NCBI RefSeq assembly: GCF_000522985.1
Contig: NZ_CP007128.1
Span: 4,634,220 to 4,698,219 of the forward strand
Reading direction: 5' to 3'
Length of the DNA: 64,000 nt
DNA from: Gemmatirosa kalamazoonensis
Lineage (GTDB): Bacteria > Gemmatimonadota > Gemmatimonadetes > Gemmatimonadales > Gemmatimonadaceae
Part shown: positions 2,455 through 59,051 of the stretch, piece after piece
Position numbering within the stretch: position 1 is the stretch's first letter
Layout of the letters: each line of letters begins with the position of its first letter
Program-made: the position numbers and the translations under genes
Notes under the pieces: generated by a model
What the model saw: the letters and a program-made list of their open reading frames with translations, nothing else
Told to the model about the DNA's origin: nothing
Databases searched by the model: none

Positions 2455-3650
2455 ATGGCCCGTACGCCTTCCGCCGCAACGGACTCGTCGAGCGACGCGG
2501 CTGACATCGAGCTCGCGGCGCGCATGGTGGTCGAGGACCACTGGGCCGTCGCCGCGCTGACGATCTCGGACCGCCAGCGCGCGCGCGCGCGCTCGTCAAG
2601 CGCGCCTGGCGCCGCGGCGCGCCGCGCCTGCGCGACGCGTGGAGCGCCCGCGATACGGAGCTGCTCACGCGCGTCGCCGATGCGTACGAGCTGGCCGCGC
2701 TGGAGCAGGCCGATCGACTCGAGCTCGCGATGCGCGAGCTCGATCGCGCAGGCCTCACGCCCACACTCCCGACGCCCCCCGAGGACGTCATCCCACCGAG
2801 CGACGACGTCGAGCGCGCCGGAGCCGCCGACGCCGGCGGCGCTCCCGCACCGACGCTGGCGGGACACGCGACGCACACGAGCTCGAGCCATCAGGCGGAG
2901 CTCGCGCAGGTCGCATCGGCACTCGCCGCGCTGCGCGGCGCGAGCGACGTCGCGTTCACGTTCGTGCGCACGCGTCCGCTGCCGCCCCCGTGGGATCCCG
3001 CCCACCTGCCGCACGTGCTGCGTGCGCTGAGCATCGGCGCGCTCGGCGCCGACCGGGTCGCGCTGCGGCAGTGGATCGCCGCGGCGCGTGACGCGCGACA
3101 CGAGACCACCGGCCTCGCGGCGGACGACGGCACGCACCAGCTGCTCGCGCGGTGGGATGCGCGGCTGCGCGACGCGCTCGTCGACGTGTGGCTCGAGATC
3201 GCCGAGCACGTGCTCACCGGCGACGAGTCGGGCGACACCGACGCGGTGCAGCGCGCGTTCGAGCGGCTCGGCGAGATGCGGGAGGCGCGCGCGACGCACG
3301 AGGCGCAGCTGCTCGTCACGCTGTCGGGCGACATGGTGCCGGTCATGCGCACCTACCTGCAGATCCTCTACGCGCTCGCCGACGCGACGGCACACACCGT
3401 CGTGTGGGCGCGGCGCGGCGTCACCGCGCTCGCGGTGCCGCGGGCCCGCATGGCGCTCGCGTCGGCCGGCACGCTCACCGCCGGCGATCGGACGCTCGAC
3501 ACGGCGTACCAGTGGCTCACGACCGCGCTCGAGGTGCCGATGATCGTCGCCGGTCTTCCCGCGCCGGCCGGCACGCTCGGCGAGCGCGGGGCGTCAGTCG
3601 TCGAGCCGGACCGCCACGGCGCGCCAGCGCGACGTCGTTCGCGCGGGTAG
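2455..3650 (+). pseudogene. hypothetical protein, frame-shifted at a (GC)n run
   Basis: Not recognised. The reading frame opens at ATG 2455 and is protein-like up to D-R-Q-R-A-R-A. It then turns into low-complexity sequence, while good coding (L-V-K-R-A-W-R-R-G-A-P) appears in another frame from 2592 and continues to the stop at 3650. The junction is the alternating G/C run at 2577-2592. Removing one GC unit joins the two halves into a single protein of about 397 residues, mostly helical (E-L-A-A-L-E-Q-A-D-R-L-E), with hydrophobic segments near the C-terminus (Y-L-Q-I-L-Y-A-L-A-D-A-T). It may be an intact gene with a sequencing error, a decayed gene or a slippage site. Its 3' end overlaps the convergent gene by 57 bases. 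Confidence 0.6.
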
Positions 3651-4082
3651 GCTCCCCGGAAAGACGAGTGACTCGACGGCCGCGGCGACCACCGCGGCCG
3701 TCGTCGCTCGCAGCAGCGCCTCGCCTTCGGCCGGCGCGCCGCGCCGCGGCGTGCGCACGTAGCAGAACGACGGTCGCGGCGCACCGCTCGCCCACCGCCC
3801 GGCGAGCCCCATCCGCCTAACGCCCGCCTCGGCGCCCACGTGCTCTTCCCCGGCGCCGTCGCCGCCGGTCGGCTCGGCGTCGATGCGGTACCACGCGTCG
3901 CGCAGTCGCGCGTGCAGATAGTACGGCTCGTCGGCGTCGCTCGCGTCCCAGTACGCGTCCCAGCACGATAGATCGTCGTCGCCGACGGACGCGATCAGCT
4001 CCACGGCCGCCGACGTCATGGGCGCGTCTTCGAGCGCGACGAGCAGTGCACCGATGGGAGCCGCGCACGCGACGAGACGCAT
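3594..4082 (-). CDS. hypothetical protein
   Basis: Not recognised. 162 residues from ATG 4082. The middle contains an acidic, aromatic stretch (D-D-D-L-S-C-W-D-A-Y-W-D-A-S-D). The last third (A-T-T-A-A-V-V-A-A-A-V-E-S-L-V-F-P) is hydrophobic and helical. The N-terminus is mildly hydrophobic without a clean signal cleavage site. It overlaps the 3' end of the convergent gene at 2455-3650 by 57 bases. A GTTAGGC heptamer lies at about 3817. An alternative ATG three codons upstream of 4082 is possible. Confidence 0.5.
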   Translation of the reverse strand: MRLVACAAPIGALLVALEDAPMTSAAVELIASVGDDDLSCWDAYWDASDADEPYYLHARLRDAWYRIDAEPTGGDGAGEEHVGAEAGVRRMGLAGRWASGAPRPSFCYVRTPRRGAPAEGEALLRATTAAVVAAAVESLVFPGSLPARTTSRWRAVAVRLDD

Positions 4083-4221
4083 GGCATCGCTGGGGTGAGA
4101 AGTGCGGAGGGAGTGCCTAACGGGCACCGGCGCGCAGTCGTCATTCGTTACGCGCCCGGGAAGAATACGAGCGCGCGCGACATTCGCAACGGCAATGCGC
4201 AGCGTCGTGCGTTGTGCACAC

Positions 4222-4276
4222 GTTCTCCACAGCATGTGCACAACTCGCTGTGCACAACGCTGTGCACAAGCACGCG
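4222..4276. promoter_or_regulatory. palindrome-rich element, copy A
   Basis: Begins GTTCTCCAC and then carries TGTGCACAA-type sites at 4235, 4249 and 4261. A further TGTGCACA lies just before, at 4213. TGTGCACA is its own reverse complement. The layout and most bases match copy B 301 bases downstream, but the palindrome core is GTGCAC here against GTCGAC there. It resembles an operator cluster or degenerate DnaA boxes. The binding factor is unknown. Confidence 0.5.
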
Positions 4277-4522
4277 TGTCGCGCGCGGCATCGCGCAGGG
4301 AGCGCCAGCGCACACGCGGACGTCGCGCGCGTCGCGATCCATACGGCGTGAACGTCGGCGCCCCCGCGCGCGAGGCGAGCTGCGCGCCGATCGGCCCCAT
4401 CACCGCTGCGTGCGCCGCGGCCATCGAGCGGGAGTTCCAGCGTTCACACTGGCCGGCGCCGTGTGCGCTGGCGTGCCCTGACCCCAGAGCGCGTACGCTT
4501 TGTCGCATTGTGATACGCATTC

Positions 4523-4580
4523 GTTCTCCACGCGCATGTCGACAACTCACGTGGACAACATGTGGAATGTCGACAACGCG
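4523..4580. promoter_or_regulatory. palindrome-rich element, copy B, just upstream of Ku
   Basis: Begins GTTCTCCAC, then carries TGTCGACA palindromes at 4537 and 4568 (31 bases apart) with CGTGGACAAC between them. It ends 82 bases before the Ku start. The sequence and spacing parallel copy A. GTTGTCCAC on the minus strand is close to actinobacterial-type DnaA boxes (TTGTCCACA), but no origin genes are present. It most simply looks like an operator for Ku. Confidence 0.5.
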
Positions 4581-4662
4581 ATGTGCGGCCCGTCGTCTGC
4601 ACCTCCGGGCCTTCCCCTGCGACTCGCACGACGCATCTTCACCTCGGACGGGACGCGACACA

Positions 4663-5547
4663 GTGGCGACGATCTGGAAAGGCGCGGTGAGCTTCGGGCT
4701 CGTGAACATCCCGGTGCGCGCGGAGCCCGCGACACGCGACACGGAGAGCGTGAGCTTCCGACAGCTCGACAAGCACAACCTCGCGCCCATCAAGATGCGG
4801 CGCGTGAACTCCGTCACCGGCGACGACGTGGAGTGGAAGGATCTCGTGAAGGGATACGAGTACACGAAGGGCAAGTTCGTCGTCGTCACGCAGGAGGAGC
4901 TCGACGCGCTCAAGGTGCCCACCGGGCGCACGCTCGACCTCGTGGCGTTCGTCGACGCCGGCGAGATCGACCCTCGACACTACGAGACGCCGTACTTCCT
5001 CATTCCCGAGTCGACCGCGGGGCGCGCGTACGCGTTGCTGCGCGAAGCCATCCGCGACAGCGGCGTCGTCGGCGTGGGACGCGTGACGATGCGGCAGCGC
5101 ACGCACCTCGTCACCGTGCGCGTGATCGAGGACGCGCTCGTGATGGACGTCATCCGCCCCGCATCGGCGCTCGTCGATCCGCGTGCGCTCGACCTGCCGA
5201 GCGCGGAGAGCGTGCGCGCGCCGGAGAAGGCGATGGCCGAGCAGCTCATCTCGCACCTGCACGCGCCGTTCGACGCGTCCGACTTCACCGACGAGTACCA
5301 GGTCGCGGTGCGCAAGCTCGTCGAGTCGAAGCTCACCGGCGTGGACCTCGAGACCGACAGCGACGTCGACGCGGTCGGCACGCCGGTCATCGACCTCATG
5401 TCGCGCCTCAAGGAGAGCCTCGCGGCCACGGGGTCCGATGCGAAGCGGGAGCGCGCGGAGCCGCACGAGACCGAGACGCGCAAGCGCGGACGCGCCTCGC
5501 ACGGCGCGCCCACGAAGAAGGCGGCGCCGCGCCGGCGCACCGCCTGA
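4663..5547 (+). CDS. ku: Ku protein (non-homologous end joining)
   Basis: Homodimeric ring that binds DNA ends and recruits LigD-type enzymes. The start is GTG 4663, giving V-A-T-I-W-K-G-A-V-S-F-G-L-V-N-I-P-V, the classic bacterial Ku N-terminus; the longer open frame upstream is not homologous. 294 residues, normal for the family. Residues 1 to about 200 are the Ku core (Y-E-Y-T-K-G-K-F-V-V-V and P-Y-F-L-I-P-E-S are recognisable). The C-terminal 40 residues are Lys/Arg rich, as in other bacterial Ku proteins, where the tail contacts DNA or LigD. The polymerase gene starts 22 bases after the stop, so the two are probably one transcript. Upstream lie the two palindrome-rich elements. Confidence 0.95.
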   Translation: MATIWKGAVSFGLVNIPVRAEPATRDTESVSFRQLDKHNLAPIKMRRVNSVTGDDVEWKDLVKGYEYTKGKFVVVTQEELDALKVPTGRTLDLVAFVDAGEIDPRHYETPYFLIPESTAGRAYALLREAIRDSGVVGVGRVTMRQRTHLVTVRVIEDALVMDVIRPASALVDPRALDLPSAESVRAPEKAMAEQLISHLHAPFDASDFTDEYQVAVRKLVESKLTGVDLETDSDVDAVGTPVIDLMSRLKESLAATGSDAKRERAEPHETETRKRGRASHGAPTKKAAPRRRTA

Positions 5548-5569: not shown

Positions 5570-6853
5570 ATGTCGCTCAAGCGCGCCGCCGCCGATCGTC
5601 CCACCATCACGGGTCCCGTGCGCGGAACCATCGCCCGACCGACGACGCGATCGCCGATCGTCGCGGGAGTCGACAGCCCGAGCCCGCCCCCGCGACGACG
5701 CGGACGCGCGCGCGTGCCTCGCATGCCGTGGTCGGACGCGCTCGCCGGCGTGCCCGATCTCGTCGCGCTCGGACTCGGCGCGACGCGCGAGGCGCTCGAT
5801 CTGCTGCTCGCGAGCGAAGCGGCCGAGTCGCACGGCGCGAAGACGCGACTGCGCCTCGCCGTCGCCGACGTGTCGGCGATCGCGCCCGAGCACTTCGGCG
5901 TGAACATCCCGACGCTCGACGAGTGCGTCGACCCGTACGGCTGGCGGTGGGTCGTGCGCGCGCCGCTCGCGCTCGGCGTCACGCATCTCGGGCGCGCCGT
6001 CGGTGCGAGCGCGACGAAGGCGGATCTGCTGCGCTACTATCTCGCCGTCGCGCCGTACCTGCTGCGCGCGATCGCCGGACGGCCGCTCGTGCTGCGCCGT
6101 CACACCGATGCGGGCGAGCGCGGCGCGTTCTACCAGCAGCACGTGAACGCCGAGCCGCCCGACGGCGTGCGCACGGCGCGCGTCGACGGCGACACGAAGC
6201 CGCGCTTCGTCGGTGGCGGTCTCGTGACGCTGCTGTATCACGTGCAGCTCGGCGCGGTGTCGATGGATCCGTGGCACGGACGCGCCGATGCCCCGGAGCT
6301 CGTCGACTACGCGATCATCGATCTCGACCCCGGGCCCGAGGCGCCGTTCGGGCGCGTCGTCGATGTCGCGCGGTGGGTGCACGACGAGCTCCTCACGCTC
6401 GGACTCGCGAGCCTGCCGAAGACGTCCGGCGCGTCGGGGATCCACGTCGTCGTGCCGCTGCCGAGCGACACGACCGCCGACGCAGCGCGGCTGCTCTCGG
6501 AGCTCGTCGCCACGCAGGTCGCGGCCCGCCATCGACACGCGGCCACGGTGGTGCGCGCGGTACGCGAGCGTCCGTCGGCGAGCGTGTACGTCGACTACCT
6601 GCAGAACATCGCCGGGAAGACGGTCGCCAGCGTGTACTCGGCGCGCGCGACGCCCACGCTCACCGTGTCCACGCCGCTGAACTGGGAGGAGGTGACGCCG
6701 GCGCTCGACGCGGGCGACTGGAACATCCGCACGGTGCCCGAGCGCATCGCGCGCGTGGGCGACCTGTGGGCCGACGCGATGCAGCGCGGCAACGACCTCG
6801 AGGCGCTGCGCCGCGTGCTGCACACGTCGCACGCGGCCGGAGGTCGGCGATGA
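5570..6853 (+). CDS. LigD-type polymerase/primase domain protein
   Basis: Archaeo-eukaryotic-primase-type polymerase that fills and extends ends during NHEJ; normally a domain of LigD, here a stand-alone protein of 427 residues. The first 60 residues are a basic Pro/Arg-rich leader. Visible catalytic motifs are I-I-D-L-D-P-G (Asp251 and Asp253, metal ligands), S-G-A-S-G-I-H-V-V-V-P-L (His292) and the late T-P-L-N-W-E-E-V motif. The Y-Q-Q-H region (about residues 185-190) matches the family's template/phosphate contact. ATG 5570 lies 22 bases after Ku. The stop overlaps the next start as ATGA. The ligase activity is presumably supplied by the gene at 1-1010; no phosphoesterase domain is seen in the window. 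Confidence 0.93.
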   Translation: MSLKRAAADRPTITGPVRGTIARPTTRSPIVAGVDSPSPPPRRRGRARVPRMPWSDALAGVPDLVALGLGATREALDLLLASEAAESHGAKTRLRLAVADVSAIAPEHFGVNIPTLDECVDPYGWRWVVRAPLALGVTHLGRAVGASATKADLLRYYLAVAPYLLRAIAGRPLVLRRHTDAGERGAFYQQHVNAEPPDGVRTARVDGDTKPRFVGGGLVTLLYHVQLGAVSMDPWHGRADAPELVDYAIIDLDPGPEAPFGRVVDVARWVHDELLTLGLASLPKTSGASGIHVVVPLPSDTTADAARLLSELVATQVAARHRHAATVVRAVRERPSASVYVDYLQNIAGKTVASVYSARATPTLTVSTPLNWEEVTPALDAGDWNIRTVPERIARVGDLWADAMQRGNDLEALRRVLHTSHAAGGRR

Positions 6854-57617: not shown

Positions 57618-59051
57618 AGAGCCTCATCAGGCGGTCCACGAGCGCCCGCGTGCGCGCCGTGTACGGCGGCCACACGAGCTTCAGCGCGGAGAGTCTCGAC
57701 TGCAGCATGACGCCCTTCTTCTTGGAGAAGCGCTCGAAGCCGTCGAAGCCGTGGTAGTGGCCCATGCCGCTGGGCCCCACGCCGCCGAACGGGAGGTTGT
57801 CCTGGCCGAGGTGGTACACGACGTCGTTCACCGTCACGCCGCCGGACGTCGTGCGCTCGAGCACGAGGTTCACGCGTCGGCCGTCGTCGTCGAAGTAGTA
57901 CAGGGCGAGCGGACGCGGGCGCGCGTTCACGTAGTCGATCGCGTCCTCCAGCGCGTCGTACGGCACGAGCGGCAGCAGCGGGCCGAAGATCTCCTCCTGC
58001 ATGACCGCCAGATCCTCCGGCGGGTCGACGAGCAGCGTCGGCGGCAGCACGCGGTTGTCGATCGTGCACCGCTCGCCGGCGGGGTTCACCTCGACGACCT
58101 CCACGCCGCGGACGCGCGCCTCCTCGACGTAGCCGGCGAGCCGCGTCCAGTGCGCGGCGTTCACCACGCGCGTGTAGTCGCGTGTCTCGACGAGCCGCGG
58201 AAAGCGCTCGGCGACGAAGCGAGCGGCGGCGTCGCGGAATGCCGTCATGCGCGCGCGCGCGGCACGAGCACGTAGTCGGGCGCCACGCACGTCTGCCCGG
58301 CGTTGTACAGCTTCCCCATCAGGATGCGCTCGACCGCGCGCTCGAGCGGCGCGTCGGCGTGCACGATCGCCGGCGACTTGCCGCCCAGCTCCAGCGTCAC
58401 CGGCGTGAGGTGCTCGCTCGCGGCGCGCATCACGAGCTTGCCGACGCGCGTCGAGCCCGTGAACACGAGATGGTCGAACGGCAGCGCGGAGAACTCGGCG
58501 GCCACCTCGGGGCCGCCGGTGACGACCGCCACGCGCTCCGGCGGGAACCGCTCGGCGACGATCCGCGCGATGAGATCCGCGGTGCGCGGCGTGATCTCGC
58601 TCGGCTTCACGATGACGTGGTTCCCCGCCGCGAGCGCGCCGACGAGCGGCGAGAGCGTGAGCAGCACCTGATAGTTCCACGCGCCGATGACGCCGACGAC
58701 GCCTAACGGCTGGTACATCACGCGCGCCCGCGCCGGCAGCAGGAACCACGTCGGCCGCACGGCGCGCGGCTTCATCCACGCGCGCAGGTGGCGGCGTGCG
58801 TTGCGGAGTTCCTCGCGCAGCGGCAGCAGCTCGAGCAGCAGTGTCTCCTCGCGCGCCCGCCCACCGAAGTCCTCCGACACGCCGTCGGCGAGCTCCTCCT
58901 GGTGCGCCCGCAGCGCGTCGGCGAGCGACTCCAGCGCCTCGATGCGCGCGTCGTAGTCCGGCGCCCCCGCGGCGAACGCGCGCCGCTGCGCGTCGAGCAG
59001 CGACGCGAGCGATGGACGATCGACAGCGGGGGGCGCGGCCGTGACGGTCAT
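57616..59051 (-). pseudogene. aldehyde dehydrogenase (coniferyl aldehyde dehydrogenase type), frame-shifted at a (GC)n run
   Basis: NAD(P)-linked oxidation of aldehydes; about 477 residues when the frame is restored. The start is ATG 59051 with GCAGGAG upstream. N-terminal half from 58245: L-E-L-G-G-K-S-P and catalytic N-A-G-Q-T-C (Cys255). The frame then runs into a stop in an alternating GC stretch (58249-58261); the C-terminal half resumes at A-F-R-D-A-A-A-R-F and includes E-E-I-F-G-P-L and P-F-G-G-V-G-P-S-G. Removing one GC unit rejoins them. The Y-H-G-F-D-G-F-E-R-F-S region supports the coniferyl-ALDH subfamily. The gene appears otherwise intact. Confidence 0.85.

Follow-up and report, generated by a model that had tools for sequence, protein, structure and literature searches.

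The ku gene of Gemmatirosa kalamazoonensis is preceded by a non-coding region in which short palindromic motifs recur, and the locus raises the question of what reads these motifs and which of the flanking genes they serve. A preliminary description took them for an operator or a replication-type box cluster, possibly read by a regulator of end joining (NHEJ). We think it likely, with a probability of roughly 0.7, that they form a control region of DnaA boxes, conserved and separate from oriC, for a small lineage-specific gene that lies on the other side of the array from ku. The genome comprises 7.48 Mb in four contigs (main contig 5,311,527 bp; C4 1,040,503 bp), and positions below refer to the window, the whole 64,000-nucleotide stretch that was analyzed (C2:4634220-4698219).

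Layout of the ku intergenic region

The 580-bp intergenic region (4083-4662) separates two divergent genes. On the right is ku (4663..5547, + strand, GTG start), whose 294-amino acid product has the Ku70/Ku80 beta-barrel, followed by a ligD primase-polymerase-domain gene with a predicted start (5570..6853, +). On the left is a small conserved gene (3594..4082, − strand) that encodes a 162-amino acid protein beginning MRLVACAAP. The window gave no hit in either an Rfam or a tRNA scan.

The region contains nine 9-mers with two or fewer mismatches to the DnaA box TTATCCACA, where 0.48 are expected and the maximum in 200 dinucleotide shuffles was three, which excludes chance. They fall into two tight groups, A (4212-4269) and B (4524-4576), the second of which ends 87 bp before the ku start. 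Genome-wide statistics are from pattern searches and an 800-kb sample of the genome; in that sample the densest 60-bp stretch, at dnaA, holds three such sites, compared with five and four in the array groups. Group A consists of TTGTGCACA (A1, 4212..4220, +), TTCTCCACA (A2, 4223..4231, +), which has one mismatch to TTATCCACA, and three more copies of TTGTGCACA on the − strand (A3, 4235..4243; A4, 4249..4257; A5, 4261..4269); A1 and A2 are in tandem with a 2-bp gap and A4 and A5 with a 3-bp gap. Group B consists of TTCTCCACG (B1, 4524..4532, +), TTGTCGACA (B2, 4537..4545, −), TTGTCCACG (B3, 4550..4558, −) and a second TTGTCGACA (B4, 4568..4576, −).

Every site named in the preliminary description is present, as are the 301-base spacing and the 580-base non-coding region: GTTCTCCAC starts at 4222 and 4523, TGTGCACA at 4213, 4235, 4249 and 4261, TGTCGACA at 4537 and 4568, and CGTGGACAAC at 4549. 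The ACAAC-ending sites are also there, except that the 4261 copy ends in ACAAG, so that group A has two of them and group B three. The two groups had been described as near-copies of one element, and this does not hold, since each arranges one and the same 9-bp site in its own order and orientation, and they have in common a direct repeat of only 15 nt (87% identical). Both of the "swapped cores" exist, but rather than two related palindromes they are variants of a single oriented DnaA-box-like motif, close to GTTSTSSACR, that fits all of the array sites.

The pattern GTTCTCCAC-N-TGTSSACAAC, for which a genome search had been suggested, is found in the 7.48 Mb only at the array; a tandem TGTSSACAAC pair occurs nowhere else in the genome, and 6 of the 25 genomic copies of GTTSTSSACA are inside the array region. 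The methylation motifs reported for this strain, ATGCAC and RGATCY (PMC3974934), are absent from the array.

Resemblance of the sites to DnaA boxes

The repeated motifs look like a conserved DnaA-box-type array, and the earlier alternative of an operator or replication-type box cluster was right in kind. Four of the five distinct 9-mers (TTCTCCACA, TTCTCCACG, TTGTCGACA and TTGTCCACG) recur identically in the 8 kb around dnaA/oriC, TTCTCCACA between dnaA and dnaN, TTCTCCACG and TTGTCGACA at oriC and TTGTCCACG upstream of dnaA. In 780 kb sampled elsewhere they have 0, 17, 1 and 1 copies, respectively, so TTCTCCACG is weak evidence for DnaA boxes and the other three are better. The fifth, TTGTGCACA, which has four copies in the array, was found neither in the 8-kb dnaA region nor in the 780-kb sample.

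The strict consensus TTWTNCACA fits no array box in G. kalamazoonensis; the boxes deviate at position 3, which is G or C, and two of them have G at position 6. Several array boxes of relatives in genera g22 and g24 do fit it strictly, and the homologous arrays of these two Gemmatimonas-like genera carry the canonical TTATCCACA, TTTTCCACA and CTATCCACA. TTATCCACA is very rare: three complete genomes have 4, 8 and 10 copies, one of which lies at dnaA in each genome, and in two of the genomes one or two lie in the array. Sites with two or fewer mismatches number 8-13 in the arrays of g10, g15 and g20; for g22/g24 and g3 a clear excess is seen when no more than one mismatch is allowed (3-4 sites against about 0.1 expected) and not always with two. 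Tandem gaps in the G. kalamazoonensis array are 2, 3 and 4 bp, and E. coli DnaA prefers 2-3 bp between tandem boxes (PMC11317965).

With the strict consensus lost, a protein other than DnaA might read TTGTGCACAA, and in this species another transcription factor might have taken over the TTGTGCACAA and TTGTCGACA palindromes in place of DnaA. Such a takeover would agree with the absence of TTGTGCACA, common to four of the five A boxes, from the 8-kb dnaA region and the 780-kb sample, but it fits poorly with the recurrence of TTGTCGACA, TTCTCCACA and TTGTCCACG at oriC/dnaA and with the report that position 5 of the DnaA box shows no base preference (PMC5295017). We regard it as unlikely.

The array accompanies the small gene

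The array could in principle belong to either flanking gene, and comparison with relatives, many of which are draft genomes, distinguishes between the two. The small-gene profile matches 46 of 179 genomes of the family in eight genera; both matches in g5 are weak and fall within long frames that look unrelated, and seven genera is therefore the safer count (g1, which is G. kalamazoonensis, g3, g10, g15, g20, g22 and g24). A phylum-wide search of 395 genomes returned the same seven genera (37 genomes) and did not find the gene outside the Gemmatimonadaceae. Pfam and NCBIfam have no family for the protein, and the AlphaFold2 model of it is poor, at a mean pLDDT of 57.5, and reaches fair confidence only over the N-terminal ~60 residues; a Foldseek search of the PDB with this low-confidence model gave no fold match.

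Where the small gene and ku are together (g1, g10, g15 and g20), 8-11 sites precede ku, and in g3, where they are also linked, the array is sparser. Other genera supplied about 20 ku loci that lack the small gene, and these have 0-2 sites. G. kalamazoonensis itself has three ku genes (C2:4638882, C2:697002 and C4:528841), of which one is carried by a large secondary replicon, and no array sites were found just upstream of the two that lie outside the window.

Conversely, the array is retained at 17 small-gene loci in g22/g24 where ku is not a known neighbor; in the part of these genomes that the ku search covered, ku was either not found or is on other contigs or far away. The complete genome G097 has its ku elsewhere, without an array. 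In G021, which has no ku match, the divergent neighbor has no Pfam match and precedes a circularly permuted ATP-grasp gene. G082 (g15) has a gene other than ku in the divergent position and keeps the whole array, its ku-side part included. A different arrangement is seen in G009, where two small-gene copies about 5 kb apart (C37:52414-52785 and 58121-58387) flank a ku-ligD block; the second has its own TTTTCCACA..TTATCCACA..CTATTGTGC promoter block, and each copy has DnaA boxes of its own.

Across the genomes compared, then, the array goes with the divergent small gene and not with ku, which is a common but dispensable neighbor. An operator through which a dedicated NHEJ regulator controls ku had the closeness of group B to ku to recommend it, and boxes together with a TGTTGATAGCAC motif also precede ku in g10, g15 and g20; yet about 20 ku loci in other genera and the other two ku genes of this genome have no array, and the array is kept where the neighbor is not ku. 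This linkage comparison led us to reject the NHEJ operator, which we now consider very improbable; the proposed regulator that reads two palindromes is likewise not supported.

Conserved architecture upstream of the small gene

The relatives share more than box number. A conserved spine runs GTTATCNACA - CTATCCACA - CAACNACTTA - TTGCG(C/T)-17-TAACAT/TAGGTT - small gene, so that boxes lie directly upstream of a conserved sigma-70-type promoter of that gene. The elements keep one order across g22/g24: opposed TGTGGANAA and next TTNTCCACA, a stretch of about 52 bp, then GTTATCCACA, TATCCACA, TCAACAACTTA and CGTATTGCG, and finally the promoter, in which 17 bp separate TTGCG(C/T) from TAACAT or a similar sequence and from which the ATG is about 75 bp away. 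Genera g15 and g20 have the same spine plus extra boxes, and box-pair gaps of 2, 6, 7, 4, 1 and 4 bp recur throughout g15 and, in part, in g20 and g10. Of 395 genomes of the phylum, 14 have the spaced pair TCCACA-N38-48-GTTATCNACA, and in 13 of these it lies at the small gene.

In G. kalamazoonensis the group on the small-gene side is compact and has no partner at 52-54 bp. Its putative small-gene promoter, which we tentatively assign to TTGCGA-16-TATTCT (4162..4189, −), occupies the place at which relatives have the strongly conserved TTGCG(C/T)-17-TAACAT or TAGGTT.

Position relative to oriC

A cluster of DnaA boxes might also mark an origin, and the box density at the array exceeds that around dnaA. 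A second or ancestral origin nevertheless seems extremely improbable, since neither a DnaA-trio nor an AT-rich unwinding element was noticed at the array, no initiator gene adjoins it, and it lies well away from dnaA, where the GC-skew minimum falls in the complete relatives G021 and G097. The skew of the G. kalamazoonensis genome is weak and only broadly consistent with this, and DnaA-trio-like repeats occur in the dnaA-dnaN regions of G. kalamazoonensis and g15. Skew, the trios at dnaA-dnaN and position together rule out the array as oriC.

The array is ~35.4% of the chromosome from dnaA in G. kalamazoonensis, 35% in G021, 36% in G097 and 38-39% in G047 (chromosome length approximate), three of these four complete chromosomes being from one genus. 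The similar distances may recall E. coli datA, DARS1 and DARS2, non-oriC DnaA-box clusters for which a conserved relative distance from oriC is reported (PMC4585315), and they are a point for the main rival to our reading, a site of the datA/DARS/DBC kind at which the array acts on DnaA itself by titration, ATP hydrolysis or nucleotide exchange and so times replication, the adjacent genes mattering little. The array is also non-coding and conserved in geometry, and E. coli, B. subtilis and Streptomyces all have known DnaA-box clusters away from oriC. Against this, a change of the other neighbor leaves the array together with the small gene and its promoter block, and the second small-gene copy has boxes of its own, both of which fit promoter control better; the distance match, in four genomes of which three are congeneric, may be coincidence. 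We take this rival seriously as a possibility while doubting that it is correct.

Two other features related to DnaA were seen. At about C2:1321735-1321821, just downstream of a parA-parB-like pair and ~112 kb from dnaA, are three DnaA-box 9-mers (TTTTCCACA, TTCTCCACA and TTGTCCACA), all of which differ from TTATCCACA by a single mismatch. The loci G021:C1:1693244-1694866, G047:C1:1881586-1883166 and G097:C1:1714214-1715791, beside an MglA-like GTPase-type gene, encode proteins with two Bac_DnaA ATPase domains in tandem, and G. kalamazoonensis has a weaker relative at C2:3559506. In these three complete relatives the gene is 60-110 kb from the array; the protein was set aside as a candidate reader of the array because only its ATPase domains were recognized and the G. 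kalamazoonensis relative is far away.

Proposed function and comparison with known systems

The reading we prefer is that the repeated motifs are the DnaA-box array of the small gene, which implies replication-linked control rather than a dedicated end-joining regulator. DnaA would most likely bind the array cooperatively, at tandem boxes 2-4 bp apart, and through the small-gene promoter would tie transcription of that gene to the replication cycle; in the ku-linked genera ku may be co-regulated through the boxes on its side. DnaA binding, transcriptional control and the sign of that control are what we infer from these comparisons.

Among known systems, the E. coli DnaA-regulated promoters nrdA, mioC and purH have double boxes 2-3 bp apart upstream of the promoter (PMC11317965); the array has more boxes, and its putative target is an uncharacterized small protein. 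The datA and DARS sites depend on IHF (and Fis) and change the nucleotide state of DnaA; the array differs from them in its linkage to a promoter that belongs to a lineage-specific gene. The DBC clusters of Bacillus subtilis and Streptomyces coelicolor, also outside oriC, restrain untimely initiation (PMC5295017, PMC4585315); they are described as close to oriC (PMC4585315), unlike the distant array of the Gemmatimonadaceae.

Replication control away from oriC is understood for a few model bacteria, and none was described for the Gemmatimonadota in the open-access literature searched. A more speculative extension, which we hold to be rather improbable as it stands, is that the small protein is a DnaA-controlled regulator of the replication cycle and the array, distant from oriC, its replication-dependent timer, which in some lineages also gates ku. 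If so, in the Gemmatimonadaceae the protein would play a part comparable to that of SirA, YabA or Hda, and end joining would be tuned to replication state where the array gates ku. The tempting reading of the locus as an NHEJ operator is corrected, and conserved array geometry, a conserved promoter block and a protein seen in one family together offer a directly testable entry to replication control.
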